From positions 558,001-622,000 of the forward strand of contig NZ_FZPD01000001.1 of the NCBI RefSeq assembly GCF_900188325.1: 64,000 bases of DNA, read 5' to 3'. The position numbers were made by a program, and so were the translations under genes. Below, in pieces: positions 20,299 through 25,891 of this stretch. Source of the stretch: Ekhidna lutea (lineage in GTDB: Bacteria > Bacteroidota > Bacteroidia > Cytophagales > Cyclobacteriaceae). The stretch's first letter is position 1. Each line of letters starts with the position of its first letter. Below the pieces are notes generated by a model. It made no database searches and was not told the DNA's origin. It worked only from the letters and a program-made list of their open reading frames with translations.

Positions 20299-20328
20299 AA
20301 GCCTGACAATCAATCGATTATCAGGCTT
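20299..20328 (-). terminator. displaced tRNA-Leu terminator
   Basis: AAGCCTGA (20299-20306) pairs with TCAGGCTT (20321-20328); on the minus strand a run of eight T follows. It lies next to the 16-bp tRNA remnant at 20331-20346, so it was probably the original tRNA-Leu terminator before the element integrated. Confidence 0.6.
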
Positions 20329-20330
20329 AT

Positions 20331-20346
20331 AAGTACCTCGGGCGGG
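20331..20346 (-). repeat. attachment-site direct repeat, left (tRNA-Leu 3' remnant)
   Basis: AAGTACCTCGGGCGGG, identical to 25021-25036, where it forms the 3' end of tRNA-Leu(UAA). It marks the left end of the integrated element. Confidence 0.85.
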
Positions 20347-20458
20347 TACAACACCCTGAAAATATCAGAAATCATTTATAGATATAATGCTTCTAAATAG
20401 CCTATAATCATGTTTTAGCACTTCGATACTTTCTGATAGCTTCCTATATTATCTGTAT

Positions 20459-20487
20459 TTTTGTAACTCCTATGTAACCCTTAAAAA
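20459..20487. repeat. subterminal repeat, left copy (possible integrase arm site)
   Basis: A 29-base stretch holding GTAACTCC and GTAACCC, directly before the integrase ATG. It matches 24954-24982 at about 25 of 29 positions in the same orientation. Placement near both ends suggests arm-type binding sites for the recombinase. Confidence 0.5.
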
Positions 20488-20489
20488 TT

Positions 20490-21548
20490 ATGGGAGTCAA
20501 ACTAAGACTTAAAGAGTATAAAAGTGGAACTAAGACTTTCTACTTAGATATTTATCACAACAATCAAAGAACCTTTGAATTTCTTGAAATTCGAATAGAT
20601 AAAAATGCTACAAGCAATGACAGAAAGGAGAAAAAGGAACTTGCTGAAAGAGTAAGAGCAAAAAGGGAATTAGAGCTTGAAAACTATGTTCATGGAACAA
20701 TACCAAAACATAGAAAAAAGGCAAACTTCAATGACTACTACCAAGAATTTCTTAATTCATACACTAAGAAGGATAAAAGGATGTTTCGCTATGCCTATGA
20801 AAAATTCTTGGACTATTCTGGACATAAATCAATAGCAGCTTATCAAATTGATTTTCAGCTTATCGAAGGGTATAGAGATTATCTAAAGGAGAAAGCTGGC
20901 TTAACTGGAGAAACACCCTATGATTATTTTGCTAGGTTCAAAAGAGTGCTAAAAAAGGCTTTTAAAGATGGACTAATAGATCAAAACAGATACCTAGCTA
21001 TTTCAGAATTATCTATTAAAAGAATTGGCAATCAACTTAAGAAACAAGTATTATCAATTGATGAAATCAGGTCTTTAAATAATACTGAATGTGGAAATGA
21101 GGAGGTAAAAAGAGCATTCCTTTTTTCATGTTTTTCAGGCCTTGGAGAAGCTGAAATTAGAAAGCTGACTTGGAGCAGAATATTGAAGGAAGATAAAATC
21201 ATGATTTTTAGAGAAAAGTCTAAGGAGCAAATCATTAATGATATTCCTAAATCTGCAATTCAATTTCTAGGTGATAGGGGCAAAAATGAGGATCTAATCT
21301 TCAAGCTACCTAGCAATGTAGCAGTAAGCAAAAATTTGAAAAACTGGACTAAGAAAGCAGGTATAACAAAGAATATAAGCTTCTATTGCGCAAGGCATAC
21401 ATTCGCAACTCAATTGCTACTATCAGGCGCTGATGTTTTGACTGTATCCAATTGCATGGGACATTCTTCAACTAAGCATACTACCATGTATCTCAATTAT
21501 GTAGATGGCCTAAAGACTAAAGCAATAGCAGATCTCCCTTCTTTATGA
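20490..21548 (+). CDS. tyrosine recombinase/integrase of the element
   Basis: 352 residues: an N-terminal arm-binding region (1-75), a SAM-like core-binding domain (about 78-170) and a catalytic domain (about 185-345). Catalytic elements: CARHTFAT with Arg302, GHSS with His325, and a tyrosine in TTMYLNYVD (Tyr334 or Tyr337). Two canonical residues are replaced. The first Arg, normally in a TGLR motif, is Gly219 (FSGLGEAEIRKLTW), and the His of HxxR is Tyr299. The CTnDOT integrase of Bacteroides is known to lack the first Arg, so the enzyme may still be active. It integrates and excises the element at tRNA-Leu. Its 3' end overlaps the next gene (ATGA). Confidence 0.88.
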   Translation: MGVKLRLKEYKSGTKTFYLDIYHNNQRTFEFLEIRIDKNATSNDRKEKKELAERVRAKRELELENYVHGTIPKHRKKANFNDYYQEFLNSYTKKDKRMFRYAYEKFLDYSGHKSIAAYQIDFQLIEGYRDYLKEKAGLTGETPYDYFARFKRVLKKAFKDGLIDQNRYLAISELSIKRIGNQLKKQVLSIDEIRSLNNTECGNEEVKRAFLFSCFSGLGEAEIRKLTWSRILKEDKIMIFREKSKEQIINDIPKSAIQFLGDRGKNEDLIFKLPSNVAVSKNLKNWTKKAGITKNISFYCARHTFATQLLLSGADVLTVSNCMGHSSTKHTTMYLNYVDGLKTKAIADLPSL

Positions 21549-22681
21549 ATACTTCTCAAAAAATCAGAAGAATCAATCAGCTATTTCTAGAATTGAATAA
21601 AGCATTTGTAACAGCATATGATGAAGATTCCTTCTTTGCTGAAAAGCTGGAAGAATCAAACCATAGCATAATTTGGGAAGGGATTATTGAATCCCTTGAA
21701 ACCCTACTTAAAGGTTTTAAAAATGAAATAGAAGATTGGCTTACAGAATACCCAGCTAGTCGAAAAACAGTTCTATTTAATTGGATTAGACACTATGAAA
21801 ATGAAGTTCAAATTGAGCTAGATATTTCCTGGTCTAAGTGCTGGTTTGATTACTTAAATAGCATAAGAAAAAACAAAGATGACACAAGGGATTTAGATAG
21901 ATTTTTCTATATCTGGGGAGAAGATTTGCGAGGAAGAAATGAAAACTACTTAAGTGATCTAAGACTAGCATATTTTGATAATTGTTTTGAAAATCAAGAT
22001 GATTGGTTGCGGAGATATGTAATCCAAAGTGAATATCCATTCAATTTCGATATTGAACAATTAAAGTCAAGGCTTGAACCTATAATTATTGCAGGAAGTT
22101 TTGATGATGCTAAGTTTCTATTCAATCACTTCAAAAGAAGATGGGATTATGAATGTCAAATTTGTGAGATTAGAGAGACCCACCCACTATTAAAGGAAAT
22201 TGAAGCCTTGTCTCCTAGGTTTCACTTTGGAGAAAGTGTAAAGCACCTGAATGAAAAGACCGAAGCTATCCAAAAGATAGGCAACCGAATAAATGAAATA
22301 GAAGCTAGATCAAAAGGGATAATACCGAAGGAGGGAAAAAAAGAAAATTTCATACCCCGCTTCACTGAAACTCAAATAAGAAAGCATTCAAGTGAGCTTT
22401 TGAATTATTTCAAAGATGCAACTGAGGATGATTTAGTCAACATCATTGTTAAAGGGTCTTCATCCAAAAGGATTACTTGGGCAAAAGAAGATGTTCAATT
22501 ATCCTGCTTTATAAATGAGATATTCATAAATCATCCTTCTAAGTGGGAACACTCTATTCCAATATTCTTAAATAAAAAAGGGAAGAAAATTAGAAATTTG
22601 AAAAATGATTACTACAGAGGTAATCAAACCAAAACAGATAAATGGATAGAATTGGTGAAACTAATCTCTTCTATTCAGTAG
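21545..22681 (+). CDS. unknown 378-residue protein of the element
   Basis: The start ATG overlaps the integrase stop region by four bases (ATGA), so the two are translationally coupled. The protein is hydrophilic and mostly helical, without a signal peptide or membrane segment. It is rich in Trp and acidic residues in the first half (for example WIRHYENEVQIELDISWSKC). CECQICEIRE-like spacing is seen as YECQICEI near residue 203, but there is no obvious zinc finger. The C-terminal third is basic. No family is recognised. The coupling suggests a recombination or regulatory accessory protein. Confidence 0.6.
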   Translation: MNTSQKIRRINQLFLELNKAFVTAYDEDSFFAEKLEESNHSIIWEGIIESLETLLKGFKNEIEDWLTEYPASRKTVLFNWIRHYENEVQIELDISWSKCWFDYLNSIRKNKDDTRDLDRFFYIWGEDLRGRNENYLSDLRLAYFDNCFENQDDWLRRYVIQSEYPFNFDIEQLKSRLEPIIIAGSFDDAKFLFNHFKRRWDYECQICEIRETHPLLKEIEALSPRFHFGESVKHLNEKTEAIQKIGNRINEIEARSKGIIPKEGKKENFIPRFTETQIRKHSSELLNYFKDATEDDLVNIIVKGSSSKRITWAKEDVQLSCFINEIFINHPSKWEHSIPIFLNKKGKKIRNLKNDYYRGNQTKTDKWIELVKLISSIQ

Positions 22682-22809
22682 ATAAAATGTGGACTGCTTA
22701 AATCCTACAAAGTCCATTTTTATACTTTCCCATACTTCTCACTTTTGTGATACTATAGTACAATAAAAGGGTAGCAGCTATCCATTTTTTTAATTCAATA
22801 ATTAAGATA

Positions 22810-23091
22810 ATGGAAATAGTATTAGAGAAGCTGGAGGCAATAGAAGACCTCCTCAAATCACAAAAAACAGTTCTTACTATTGATGACCTAACAACTTTAT
22901 CAGGTCTCAGTAAAAGCACTATTTACAAGTTTACATGCACAAATAAAATCCCTCACTATAAGAGGGCAAAGCACCTCTATTTTGATAGAGTTGAGATTGA
23001 GAATTGGCTAAAGTCCAAAAGAATAAAAACTACTGAGGAGCTAGATTCTGAGGCTGGAAATTATGTAACTCTAAATTCTATCAAGTCATGA
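22810..23091 (+). CDS. helix-turn-helix protein, excisionase/AlpA-like
   Basis: 93 residues. A short N-terminal coil (LEKLEAIEDLLKSQK) is followed by a MerR-type winged HTH: LTIDDLTTLSGLSKSTIYKF, then KIPHYKRAKHLYFDRVEIENWL. This is the HTH_17 layout common in mobile elements of Bacteroidota. Such proteins act as excisionases (Xis) or as regulators of the replication genes. It overlaps the next gene by four bases (ATGA). Confidence 0.75.
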   Translation: MEIVLEKLEAIEDLLKSQKTVLTIDDLTTLSGLSKSTIYKFTCTNKIPHYKRAKHLYFDRVEIENWLKSKRIKTTEELDSEAGNYVTLNSIKS

Positions 23092-23642
23092 GTAATTGGA
23101 GTTATTTCAACTTTGTAGAGCTTCCAGAGGAGGTAAAACAAGCATATAAGATAAGATCAAAAAATAGACTGGATTGCATATCATACTTTAGTCCAGATGA
23201 GACATTGAGAGGGTATACATTTTTTGTCAATTTTAAAGGAATGCTCTACATGAATAAGAGTCAACCTAGATCGTTTGTTAATGCTGACATTAAAAGGCAA
23301 ACGGATCTTGCATTGATAAATTCTGTTAAGGGTAATTCATACAATATCTCAAGCATCTATATTGATATACCTGATAGGATAGATATTGGATATGGTTGGC
23401 CTTCGAATAAGAAAATGTTAGGTTCAAAAGGGGAAAAGCCCAACCCTTTATTTGCCTTTAAAAATGACCTCTACATTTTTATAATGAATCAAGAAAGGAG
23501 TCAAATAGAATTGATTGTCATTCCAGAAATGAGACATCTATGGTTATCGTTCTACCAAAGGTTTTTGAATGACGATTTCTGTATAGAACTGGATGAGCTT
23601 AGAGAAAGGGCAACAGCATTATTCTCTTATAGTAATAGGTAA
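23088..23642 (+). CDS. unknown 184-residue protein of the element
   Basis: Overlaps the HTH gene by ATGA and precedes the Rep gene by 22 bases. It has no signal peptide or membrane helix. It mixes strands and helices, with a Tyr/Phe-rich start (MSNWSYFNFVELPEEVKQAY) and a helical end. No known family is recognised. Position between HTH and Rep suggests a role in replication or its control. Confidence 0.6.
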   Translation: MSNWSYFNFVELPEEVKQAYKIRSKNRLDCISYFSPDETLRGYTFFVNFKGMLYMNKSQPRSFVNADIKRQTDLALINSVKGNSYNISSIYIDIPDRIDIGYGWPSNKKMLGSKGEKPNPLFAFKNDLYIFIMNQERSQIELIVIPEMRHLWLSFYQRFLNDDFCIELDELRERATALFSYSNR

Positions 23643-23664
23643 TCATTGACATTATTAATCAATA

Positions 23665-24585
23665 ATGGTTGACACTATACACCTTTGGTTAAGTGAAGAG
23701 GCGGTTGGGAACTATAACCCGACTGCCATTCTTCCCTTATTAGAACATGGAGCAGAACACAAAAGAAACTCTATTGTGTCATTCTCAGGTAGCATTCAAA
23801 ACTTGAAAGTTTCACTATTGAAGGAAGGTGTATCTGTAAAGGGGAGTTTACCCAAATATCTATTCAGTGATAATATTCAAACCCTATCAAGATCAAGTTT
23901 AGAGCAATCTTGTGAAAAGCTTAGTGATGAACTTAAAATGCCATTCAGCAAAGCGACAATTAGTAGACTTGATATTGCTCAAACCTTCTTAATGAATCAT
24001 GCTCCAGAGACTTATTTTAATTGCTTGGGTGAGAGTAAATATTTTGAAAGATTAACACAACCCTCAAGCCTCTATTATCAAAATACTCAAAAGCAAATTG
24101 TCTTCTATAACAAGATAAAAGAGATTCAAAAGAAAGGCATTAAGGTGCCTTCTGTATGGCTAAATCAAAACACCTTAAGGTATGAGTATCGAATTACAAA
24201 AAGAGTTTCTAAAAGCCTTAAATGGGCTCATAGTAATTTTGATGATCTCTTTACTGAAAAGAATTACATGGATCTTATAGATACTTACTTGATGCAATAT
24301 GATGCAATCAAAAAGAATAGATCTGTGACATTTAATCTAGAACACATGAATAGCCCTAAAGACTTTCACAATCAAATACTCTCAATGGCTTACAATCAAT
24401 TAGGTGATGAAGCTTTTCAAATGATAAAGGAGCTTAAGCATAGAAAAGCATTTAAGAATAAGGAGTATTACAGTAGACTTAAAAAAGAAATTAGAAATCT
24501 AACTACAAGCAAATGTTCTGAGGAATCAGAGCTAATCAAAGAGCTAGATTTAAAAGTTCTGTCACTTAAAAATAACTACAGGTAA
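23665..24585 (+). CDS. filamentous-phage-type replication initiator (gene II/X family-like)
   Basis: 306 residues. The pattern fits phage/plasmid replication proteins of the gene II/X group: VSVKGSLPKYLFSDNIQTLS, ISRLDIAQTFLMNHAPETYF, SLYYQNTQKQIVFYNKIKEI, and LRYEYRITKRVSKSL. These initiate rolling-circle replication by nicking one strand at a double-strand origin through a tyrosine. Here it would let the element replicate after excision. A candidate origin lies directly downstream (24625-24763). Confidence 0.68.
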   Translation: MVDTIHLWLSEEAVGNYNPTAILPLLEHGAEHKRNSIVSFSGSIQNLKVSLLKEGVSVKGSLPKYLFSDNIQTLSRSSLEQSCEKLSDELKMPFSKATISRLDIAQTFLMNHAPETYFNCLGESKYFERLTQPSSLYYQNTQKQIVFYNKIKEIQKKGIKVPSVWLNQNTLRYEYRITKRVSKSLKWAHSNFDDLFTEKNYMDLIDTYLMQYDAIKKNRSVTFNLEHMNSPKDFHNQILSMAYNQLGDEAFQMIKELKHRKAFKNKEYYSRLKKEIRNLTTSKCSEESELIKELDLKVLSLKNNYR

Positions 24586-24624
24586 GGGGAAGCCTTAATT
24601 GTTTTCATAAAATCGCTTTTTCAT

Positions 24625-24763
24625 ACCCTATCCCCATCTACTTTTTTAGGGGATGAATTTTTGAAAACCATTTATTACAATAATTCAATTTTGATTGGGA
24701 GGGGGGTAAGTCAAATGTTAGGAAACTATCACCCCACTTAACCCTATCCCCATCTACTTTTTT
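24625..24763. repeat. 23-base direct repeats with hairpin
   Basis: Exact copies at 24625-24647 and 24741-24763 (116 bases apart), each with CCCTATCCCCATCTAC and a T6 run. The left copy forms a 6-bp stem with the GGGGAT that follows it. Confidence 0.7.
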
Positions 24764-24953
24764 GCGCAACAGATTTCCATGAGGGGGGTCTTAGGATAAG
24801 ACAATTCAATCTACTTGTTTCTCCATCTATTTTTTCTATGAGAATCATATTTTGAATAAAGCCACATTGAACCTACCCAAATAGCAATCAAAGCTATTAT
24901 TTCATACCATTTTAGATCCATAACTTCAAGTAAGTCAAAAAAATCGAAATCAC

Positions 24954-24982
24954 TTTTGTTACTCCATTGTAACCCTAAAAAA
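24954..24982. repeat. subterminal repeat, right copy (possible integrase arm site)
   Basis: Matches the left copy at 20459-20487 at about 25 of 29 positions and lies 38 bases inside the right attachment repeat. Confidence 0.5.
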
Positions 24983-24985
24983 CAA

Positions 24986-25019
24986 AAACCCCTGAAAATC
25001 AACTGATTAACAGGGGTTT
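24986..25019 (-). terminator. terminator now serving tRNA-Leu
   Basis: AAACCCCTG (24986-24994) pairs with CAGGGGTTT (25011-25019); on the minus strand TTTTTGTT follows. Its loop shares AATCAA and GATTA with the displaced terminator at 20299, as expected if the element once captured a tRNA-Leu 3' region. Confidence 0.75.
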
Positions 25020-25023
25020 GAAG

Positions 25024-25108
25024 TACCTCGGGCGGGACTTGAACCCGCACGACCGCAATGGTCACAGGATTTTAAGTCCTGCGTGTCTACCAATTCCACC
25101 ACCGAGGC
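25024..25108 (-). tRNA. tRNA-Leu (anticodon UAA)
   Basis: 85 nt with a long variable arm, as expected for leucine. The acceptor GCCTCGG pairs with CCGAGGT (one G-U), the anticodon stem CAGGA/TCCTG encloses CTTAAAA with anticodon TAA, and the T arm GCGGGTTCAAGTCCCGC is standard. The CCA end is not encoded. Its 3' end is the attachment site of the integrative element. Its 5' end is 3 bases from the stop of the GIY-YIG gene. It appears intact and functional. Confidence 0.95.
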
Positions 25109-25111
25109 ATT

Positions 25112-25345
25112 TTATAGACTTCTAAGAAAGTCCCTGCCAATGCCAGATTTAAGATACTTTTCTCGCTTTCTGGCTTCAATTCTTGTTTCGAAGGTTTCTG
25201 AATGAATTAGAACAAAAGGCCGATATGGCTTTGTAGTCTTATTCTTTCCTTCATTATGTTCTTTTAACCTCCTTTCGAGATTATTTGAAAGACCTACATA
25301 AATGTAGTTTCTATCCTCACTTTTTATTGCGTAAACGTAAAACAT
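25112..25345 (-). CDS. GIY-YIG nuclease, small single-domain
   Basis: 77 residues, essentially a bare GIY-YIG domain: FYVYAIKS (GIY position), NYIYVGLSNNLERRLKEHN (YIG position as YVG, with Arg and His), and ETRIEARKREKYLKSG with the catalytic Glu. Such URI-type domains cut DNA, and related ones act as homing nucleases. The gene fits almost exactly between two copies of tRNA-Leu(UAA) sequence: the start codon is 4 bases after a truncated 5' half, and the stop is 3 bases before the intact tRNA. This suggests a tRNA-targeting mobile gene rather than a housekeeping enzyme. Confidence 0.85.
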   Translation of the reverse strand: MFYVYAIKSEDRNYIYVGLSNNLERRLKEHNEGKNKTTKPYRPFVLIHSETFETRIEARKREKYLKSGIGRDFLRSL

Positions 25346-25349
25346 ATCG

Positions 25350-25430
25350 TTTTAAGTCCTGCGTGTCTACCAACTTACCTTCGGTAGGCAGGCTTGCCTG
25401 CCGCAGGCAGGTTCCACCACCGAGGCATTT
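25350..25430 (-). pseudogene. truncated 5' half of tRNA-Leu(UAA), interrupted by a 38-bp insert
   Basis: On the minus strand it begins like the intact tRNA (GCCTCGGTGGTGGAA), is broken by 38 foreign bases, resumes TTGGTAGACACGCAGG and ACTTAAAA, and stops in the anticodon loop. 43 bases match the intact tRNA exactly (25412-25430 with 25094-25112; 25350-25373 with 25070-25093). It lacks the 3' half and cannot be functional. Confidence 0.85.
25374..25411. repeat. 38-bp palindromic insert in the tRNA fragment
   Basis: Contains GCAGGCTTGCCTGC and CCTGCCGCAGGCAGG, overlapping inverted repeats of the short REP-like kind. It is absent from the intact tRNA copy, where the flanking bases are contiguous. 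Confidence 0.75.
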
Positions 25431-25439
25431 GGTTGGTAC

Positions 25440-25468
25440 CAAAAAAGAAGCCGCATCTAGTGCGGCTC
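25440..25468 (-). terminator. terminator after tRNA-Gly
   Basis: GCCGCA (25450-25455) pairs with TGCGGC (25461-25466) around CTAG; on the minus strand a TTCTTTTTT run follows. Located just after the tRNA-Gly 3' end. Confidence 0.75.
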
Positions 25469-25471
25469 TTG

Positions 25472-25544
25472 AGCGGGAGACGGGATTCGAACCCGCGACC
25501 CCAACCTTGGCAAGGTTGTGCTCTACCAGCTGAGCTACTCTCGC
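25472..25544 (-). tRNA. tRNA-Gly (anticodon GCC)
   Basis: 73 nt: GCGAGAG-TAGCTCAGCTGGTAGAGCA, anticodon stem CAACC/GGTTG with loop TTGCCAA (anticodon GCC), T arm GCGGGTTCGAATCCCGT, discriminator T. One mismatch (A4-C69) occurs in the acceptor stem. CCA is not encoded. Confidence 0.95.
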
Positions 25545-25891
25545 TTATCCTACTTCCTTTGAAAAGGACTGCAAATTTATATGAACCATTTAAAATTACA
25601 ATAAGAATACCAGGCTCTTTTTGCCTAACTATTTTTTAAAGATTATTTGCTCCACTCAGGACGCACCGTGGATGTTGTGAAGGAACGGACACTTGAGAGT
25701 TGTTTTGAGTATAGATTTCAAGTTTCGATCATGGAAAACGTAAATAATAGTTCAAGCCCTAATGAGAAATGCAATTAAATTGTAACAAGACAGCAAACCA
25801 CGTGTTCATTAGGTAGAAGGAACACTAATTAAAATTCAAAAAGTTTTAAGCGGAGGATCAGACGATTGCACGTGAATAAATAAAAATTGAA
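25545..25891. other. intergenic region
   Basis: 347 bases between tRNA-Gly and the next operon. It should hold the tRNA-Gly promoter (minus) and the promoter of the gene at 25892 (plus). I see no gene or strong repeat; CACGTG occurs at 25799 and 25870. Confidence 0.4.

Follow-up and report, generated by a model that had tools for sequence, protein, structure and literature searches.

Free-standing GIY-YIG nucleases encoded beside tRNA genes have an experimental precedent in SegB, a homing endonuclease of T4/T6-type phages that cuts within phage tRNA genes and is required for the tandem amplification of the tRNA plus segB (PMC13096335). The available sections of that report give no favoured isotype and mention neither a broken tRNA copy nor a palindrome, and we read the SegB motif stated there, RAWTSGAAC, as the T-loop of the opposite strand. 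SegB is phage-borne, whereas the family described here resides in bacterial chromosomes, consists of proteins of 77-85 aa in the aligned examples and is isotype-faithful. In fungal mitochondria, mobile ORFs (atp6 of Allomyces; atp6, atp9, cox2, and nad3 of Glomus) insert an endonuclease ORF along with a second copy of one end of the target gene, which stays whole; in the cases covered by the available part of the source, the targets are protein genes, the duplicated end is the 3' end and the inserted part is foreign (PMC3630166). The present element instead occupies tRNA genes, at either end, with a duplicated part that is host-like rather than foreign, and with palindromes in addition. The insertion mode proposed in a first-pass annotation of the locus, which knew of no description of it, nevertheless has this precedent, in that endonuclease ORFs bringing a replacement gene end are described in the same part of the fungal source. 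Short palindromes, single or double, are known as repetitive or double hairpin elements of mitochondrial DNA, also within rRNA genes, and have no attached nuclease gene in the portion of the report available (PMC2800124), whereas the present palindromes lie in broken copies of bacterial tRNA genes, mostly at loops. The tRNA passages in the accessible text of a GIY-YIG superfamily paper (PMC1564403) are unrelated to tRNA-gene association, and no paper on the present family appeared among the titles and abstract openings listed by an open-licence library, which mostly excludes subscription papers.

Tyrosine-integrase elements at tRNA 3' ends likewise insert at a tRNA and leave one copy whole; they depend on an integrase, and their 3' att repeat is short, whereas no integrase gene lies inside the GIY-YIG element. 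Group I introns target the anticodon loop of tRNA-Leu(UAA), the same target tRNA as here, where the tRNA is however kept by duplication and not by splicing. Here, we describe a GIY-YIG gene of Ekhidna lutea that lies between a broken and a whole copy of tRNA-Leu(UAA), along with its relatives in other genomes. The arrangement is real, recurrent, and biologically meaningful.

The locus in Ekhidna lutea and its congeners

The window, the whole stretch of 64,000 nucleotides that was analyzed, holds on its minus strand, in this order, tRNA-Gly, a 5' piece of tRNA-Leu, the GIY-YIG gene, and the intact tRNA-Leu(UAA) (Table 1). ARAGORN, PF01541, and the sequence itself bore out the order, the 4- and 3-base gaps and the gene length given by the first-pass annotation. 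Its total of 43 bases shared exactly by the two tRNA copies was also right; these do not form one block, however, and are split into 19 and 24 around a 38-base insert in the D-loop, which had been overlooked and which holds CCTGCC/GGCAGG-type palindromes. At the whole copy, the GIY-YIG stop codon overlaps the 4 leader bases by one, its last base serving as the first of them. Native upstream sequence adjoins the broken copy, and the terminator comes after the whole one.

Table 1. Features of the GIY-YIG locus, in window positions
Feature	Position	Strand	Basis
Intact tRNA-Leu(UAA), 3' side of the element	25023..25108	-	ARAGORN; Rfam tRNA 60.2 bits
3-base spacer AAT, GIY-YIG stop codon to tRNA-Leu	25109..25111	-	Sequence
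GIY-YIG nuclease gene, 77 aa + stop = 234 bp	25112..25345	-	PF01541 E 4.4e-20
4-base linker CGAT, tRNA piece (CTTAAAA end) to ATG	25346..25349	-	Sequence
Broken tRNA-Leu copy, second part, tRNA positions 16-39	25350..25373	-	24/24 identical to 25070-25093
Palindrome-containing D-loop insert of broken copy, 38 bases	25374..25411	-	Exactly between tRNA positions 15/16
Broken tRNA-Leu copy, first part, 4 leader bases + tRNA positions 1-15	25412..25430	-	19/19 identical to 25094-25112
tRNA-Gly(GCC), upstream neighbour, common to empty sites	25471..25544	-	ARAGORN; Rfam tRNA 65.7 bits

A group I intron was considered and rejected, an Rfam scan of 24700-25700 giving no intron match up to E 1. No tRNA lies at the other six PF01541 loci of the Ekhidna lutea genome.

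A stretch of about 4.7 kb (20324-25036) encodes a tyrosine integrase (20490-21548, PF00589), an HTH_17 protein (22810-23091), and a G2P-type replication protein (23665-24585, PF05144), and ends in a repeat of the tRNA-Leu 3' end (20324-20346 vs 25014-25036, 87%); a 23-bp exact direct repeat (24625-24647 and 24741-24763) lies between the replication gene and tRNA-Leu. Since the 3'-end repeat bounds the integrase stretch, two different types of mobile element seem to have struck this tRNA-Leu gene, one on each side, with a tyrosine-integrase element apparently seated at its other end.

tRNA-Leu was searched in ten genomes of the genus, and nine loci were inspected. The site is occupied in G000, G005, and G007 (with the gene frame-broken in G007), and recurrence of the window arrangement in the congeners G005 and G007, and at other tRNAs in most of the relatives retrieved, shows that it is not due to chance; G005 and G007 both carry simple 19-bp palindromes at the same D-loop point (loci L011 and L012). 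Empty sites, which the first-pass annotation had proposed looking for, are present in G002, G003, G004, and G006, with tRNA-Gly, the terminator, and tRNA-Leu and nothing inserted. The contig of G004 stops at tRNA-Leu, that of G001 stops shortly upstream of it, and G008 gave no match; in G009, the GIY-YIG gene is decayed and the 5' tRNA piece is absent. The occupied and empty sites, together with the native flank beside the broken copy, uphold the proposed insertion into a tRNA gene with one tRNA left whole. An ancestral tandem pair of tRNA-Leu, named earlier as one finding that would count against insertion, was encountered at the site in none of the congeners read, although G002 has a separate 3' piece elsewhere: on another contig (L153), 62 nt of tRNA-Leu stand alone with a terminator, perhaps as an integrase scar. 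Between the nuclease genes of G000 and G005, dN/dS is 0.096, with a median of 0.113 over 16 pairs that include this one; these ratios indicate that the gene is under purifying selection, its function presumably being kept.

A family of nucleases beside tRNA genes

With the window protein as query, 22 of 39 genomes, the own genome included, were matched at E ≤ 0.001. A profile built from a 14-row alignment matched 119 of 148 genomes of the same bacterial family at E ≤ 1e-10, a looser count because this cut-off admits some UPF0213-type genes, and 90/148 (our own count among the matches listed) reached E ≤ 1e-20; across the phylum, 121/247 genomes matched at E ≤ 1e-15. Both profile scans list the best of a larger number of matches. 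The window protein was also run against named genomes, where the 80 best of 170 loci were kept, and 28 new loci were taken from the phylum scan; from the same-family scan, 6 matches near contig ends were left out. Cultured carriers among the named genomes include strains of Flagellimonas (L232, 5' layout) and Algoriphagus (L218, 3' layout). After removal of near-identical proteins, 231 loci were reduced to 220; 8 duplicate loci were skipped, and the decayed locus L031 enters no count. The set is no census and is biased to the best scores and to Leu-type relatives, because it consists of best-scoring loci and draws on the 80-of-170 scan with the window protein.

The association with tRNA genes was counted at the 186 of 220 loci with at least 500 bp on both sides, the other 34 being dropped. 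A tRNA gene on the same strand lies within 400 bp of the nuclease gene at 169/186 of these non-redundant relatives. Comparing the flanks of the relatives with the adjacent tRNA, a check suggested by the first-pass annotation, revealed a tRNA piece on the far side of the nuclease gene at 153/186. In a search configured slightly differently from that piece count, the locus's own tRNA found a far-side piece in 135/169 at E ≤ 1e-5 and 154/169 at E ≤ 0.05, compared with 0/169 and 23/169, respectively, for a tRNA of another isotype taken from another locus. As a control, 30 of 51 listed UPF0213-type GIY-YIG loci from the same bacterial family were taken; among the 26 with room, none has a tRNA within 400 bp (L280 has one 424 bp away, beyond the limit). 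Relatives far from tRNA genes, which had been named as evidence against insertion, account for only 17/186 loci with room; 7 of these hold tRNA remnants, and the other 10 have neither tRNA nor remnant, two of them (L027 and L030) being UPF0213-type. In a search for other RNA genes beside tRNA-less loci, Rfam models run on 18 loci (15 tRNA-less ones plus L016, L186, and L191) returned tRNAs only.

The family was also sought among mobile carriers. All 21 records from the phage collection and all 7 from plasmids are below 60% identity, and phage or plasmid cargo was rejected since neither collection yielded a close carrier.

The tRNA isotype can largely be predicted from the nuclease lineage, and for Leu this holds across phyla. 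For 158/188 nucleases, the nearest neighbour sits at the same isotype (shuffled mean 46, maximum 71), with agreement in 146/156 at 60% protein identity or more and in 12/32 below 60%. In a tree of 183 proteins, built on 80 columns and with 96 of 180 inner branches unresolved, 23 isotype changes suffice compared with a shuffled mean of 95, a number as low being reached in 0/200 shuffles; the Met elements form one clade (SH-aLRT 98). Among the 80 named relatives (best 80 of 170; 58-88% identity), 65 adjoin tRNA-Leu and 5 tRNA-Arg, and at the remaining 10 an intact tRNA is missing from the nearby sequence: 8 of them lie at contig ends, and the other 2 show tRNA-Leu remnants. The 83 Leu loci include Bacteroidota, Ignavibacteriota, Nitrospirota, Omnitrophota, and several lineages of Patescibacteria (33/83 carry no taxon name there), and their anticodons are CAA, UAA, GAG, CAG, and UAG. 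Because the anticodon is weakly conserved within Leu (nearest neighbours agree in 38/83 cases vs 24), the feature matched is something common to Leu tRNAs. The fidelity could stem from homologous recombination at conserved tRNA genes and not from the enzyme.

Two layouts occur. In the 5' layout, that of the window, it is the 5' part that is broken, with the whole tRNA downstream of the gene; in the 3' layout, the whole tRNA lies upstream and a broken 3' part downstream. Of 188 non-redundant loci with a tRNA, 71 have the 5' and 97 the 3' layout, with 7 and 13 more, respectively, lacking a detected piece. An empty and an occupied site are also paired for the 3' layout (G132 and G166), with two palindromes in the broken copy of G166. 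The family does not support a single, constant entry site in the anticodon loop, as first suggested for the window: the inner end of the broken copy ranges from about position 26 to almost the entire tRNA, many relatives have a broken 3' part, and layouts are mixed within a lineage. Layout as a lineage trait found no support within Leu (nearest neighbours alike in 48/83, P 0.11), and it looks like an outcome rather than a trait. Tandem arrays of up to 14 copies occur; in L084 (G118), 14 units of a GIY-YIG gene and a pseudo-tRNA-Asp are arrayed with a period of 345-346 bp.

Proposed break and repair at the tRNA gene

We consider it probable, though well short of certain, that this is an isotype-specific, tRNA-targeting, homing-like element with one stand-alone GIY-YIG gene that leaves one tRNA whole. 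The nuclease would break a tRNA gene of the isotype to which it is matched (tRNA-Leu in this case), and repair of the break would insert the nuclease gene and duplicate the tRNA locally, partly or entirely. The result would be a whole tRNA gene on one side and a redundant copy on the other, usually shortened and often carrying palindromes, mostly at loops. Further rounds, or unequal exchange, may then give rise to tandem arrays, new rounds being expected because the whole tRNA copy is again a target. A nuclease break with repair by local duplication would account for the location, the isotype fidelity, both layouts, the empty sites, and the arrays. The palindromes and the escape of the whole copy are outside what such a mechanism explains, and it looks like a point against the homing-like reading that the whole tRNA copy beside the gene should stay cleavable.

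The family shares with free-standing homing endonucleases a GIY-YIG domain (Table 1) without an intron, cognate sites both occupied and empty, and a target matched to the lineage, whether through the enzyme or through recombination. Against solved structures, the family profile scores best with UPF0213 proteins (1zg2, E 3.5e-15; 1ywl, E 9.7e-15), followed by Slx1 (E 3.7e-8) and, far behind, I-TevI (E 0.0026) of the I-TevI/Seg branch. By sequence, the enzyme is nearer to UPF0213/Slx1 than to I-TevI. The likeness to UPF0213 (YhbQ-like) proteins does not extend to the locus, given the tRNA association of the present family (169/186) and its absence from UPF0213-type genes (0/26). Slx1 is a structure-specific nuclease and the 77-aa enzyme is without an obvious separate DNA-binding part, so that sequence-specific homing is not a given; the closeness of the profile to UPF0213/Slx1 keeps alive a structure-directed mechanism with the palindrome as partner DNA.

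Palindromes, broken copies, and competing explanations

Such a mechanism is the core of a two-component explanation, in which the palindrome of about 20 bp is the mobile or recognized DNA, the Slx1-like GIY-YIG protein acts on hairpins or cruciforms (tRNA arms and palindromes), and palindrome insertion leaves the tRNA duplication as its scar, with the nuclease gene in a helper role. We judge this combination unlikely, although several properties of the palindromes speak for it, as does the presence of Slx1 among the nearest solved structures. In the broken copies, 72 clean insertions were mapped at 66 loci (excluding L094, L117, and L090, pseudo-tRNAs that had been called as tRNAs). The D-, anticodon-, or T-loop intervals hold 54/72 of them (expected 0.33, binomial P 3e-13, with related loci non-independent and stem/loop boundaries scored as loop), and 44/72 are 19-22 in length. 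Perfect stems of at least 9 occur in 44/162 broken copies, compared with 2/810 shuffles, 7/159 flanks, and 0/162 intact tRNAs; for stems of at least 7, the respective counts are 91/162, 56/810, 23/159, and 20/162. The same CCTGCCTGCCGGCAGGCAGG palindrome is found in Leu and Arg lineages of different phyla, many Met elements have TCCGCC..GGCGGA and many Asp elements TCCCGA..TCGGGA. Palindrome class tracks isotype or lineage (91/166 vs a free-shuffle mean of 52, maximum 74).

Palindromes also occur apart from the nuclease gene. Among 22 palindrome loci outside GIY-YIG loci, for which 20 places were chosen by us from those listed and not at random, 7 adjoin tRNAs, and in 6 of these 7 the palindrome abuts a 5' piece of the tRNA in question, at positions 15, 18, 22, 22, 24, and about 26-30, and a GIY-YIG gene is absent. 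At these six loci (L308, L313, L314, L315, L318, and L319), the 5' piece and a CCTGCCTGC palindrome are followed by an intact tRNA, of isotype Leu, Arg, Arg, Leu, Gln, and Val, respectively; L308 has two 5' pieces, and L318 also has 3' pieces of tRNA-Gln downstream. They are relics or non-autonomous copies, and because such pieces occur without a GIY-YIG gene, the gene need not accompany a palindrome-bearing tRNA piece. At the seventh, L040 (C10 of the own genome), only a few bases separate the same palindrome from an intact tRNA-Ser(UGA) downstream, with neither a nuclease gene nor a detectable tRNA piece. In three genomes (L041, L316, and L312), the palindrome sits in similar surroundings without a tRNA (..ACCTGCC..GGCAGGTTCTG..).

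Other observations weigh against the palindrome as the moving part. No tRNA is nearby at 15 of the 22 palindrome loci outside GIY-YIG loci, and 71/162 broken copies are without a perfect stem of at least 7. Within isotypes, the agreement of palindrome class with nuclease (91 vs a mean of 75, maximum 99, with crude classes) is not clearly above shuffles. Many element-bearing genomes do not have the Leu-type palindrome. Its abundance was rejected as a trivial cause, the palindrome being rare in genomes (50/148 genomes; reversed control 0 among the matches listed). Y1 transposases act on REP sequences, which offers an analogy for a palindrome with a helper; in comparison with such a REP/RAYT-type system, the link between nuclease and palindrome is an association.

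The palindrome may nonetheless be the truly new part, one that could make the system a new kind. The boldest reading, which taken as a whole we hold only tentatively and think unlikely, is a new transposition system in which a minimal, Slx1-like, structure-directed GIY-YIG nuclease and a cognate palindrome of about 20 bp as its cis element would spread by breaking the arms of the tRNA cloverleaf at the loops, each insertion being accompanied by local duplication of the tRNA, which would leave the host a functional gene; nuclease lineage, palindrome type, and isotype would travel together between phyla, with the nuclease-less pieces as non-autonomous offspring.

The original interpretation of the window was that the element carries the nuclease gene together with a tRNA half, homes into the anticodon loop, and replaces the half that is lost. 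It fits the layout of the window and follows a mode known from fungal mitochondria, and yet we regard it as improbable, since the inner boundary is variable, 5' and 3' layouts are mixed, no palindrome is predicted, and the broken pieces resemble the tRNA of their own host. At 154 loci (excluding L094, L117, L090, and L020), the pieces match their own tRNA at 0.958, compared with a mean of 0.629 for other hosts with the same anticodon and 0.829 for the best other host. The own tRNA equals or exceeds the best other host in 152/154 loci, a count biased by the pieces having been found with the own tRNA, and the match is perfect in 96; the Asp elements are weakest (0.806 vs 0.740). These matches suggest local duplication and not an imported half, while gene conversion after import of the tRNA half is possible. 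At L094, L117, and L090, ARAGORN calls tRNA-Ser(CGA) or tRNA-SeC; our reading is that these are pseudo-tRNAs with hairpins, belonging to Asp and Met elements.

Very improbable, in our estimate, is a toxin-antitoxin-like unit whose protein cuts the tRNA-Leu RNA and whose hairpin-bearing piece serves as a decoy RNA: the piece does mimic the cognate tRNA with altered loops, and at L023, one locus judged by eye, T-stem pairing is kept despite changes, but neither the position of the gene beside its cognate tRNA gene in 169/186 loci nor the short-stub pieces would be accounted for. That an old tandem tRNA pair simply decayed and the nuclease gene is there by chance as a passenger, to which the apparent non-functionality of the broken copies would conform, is hardly credible in view of empty sites without a tandem pair, the isotype fidelity, and the control family (0/26).

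For genome annotation, the locus is a caution that hairpin-bearing pseudo-tRNAs can be reported as odd isotypes, and it turns a short GIY-YIG protein, a frequent and overlooked annotation, into a probable family of mobile elements. Two questions become testable: by what means a 77-aa nuclease locates a single tRNA gene, and what places palindromes at the loops of tRNAs. The family provides a natural system in which a selfish nuclease resides inside essential genes and the host survives, with lineages largely faithful to single isotypes.
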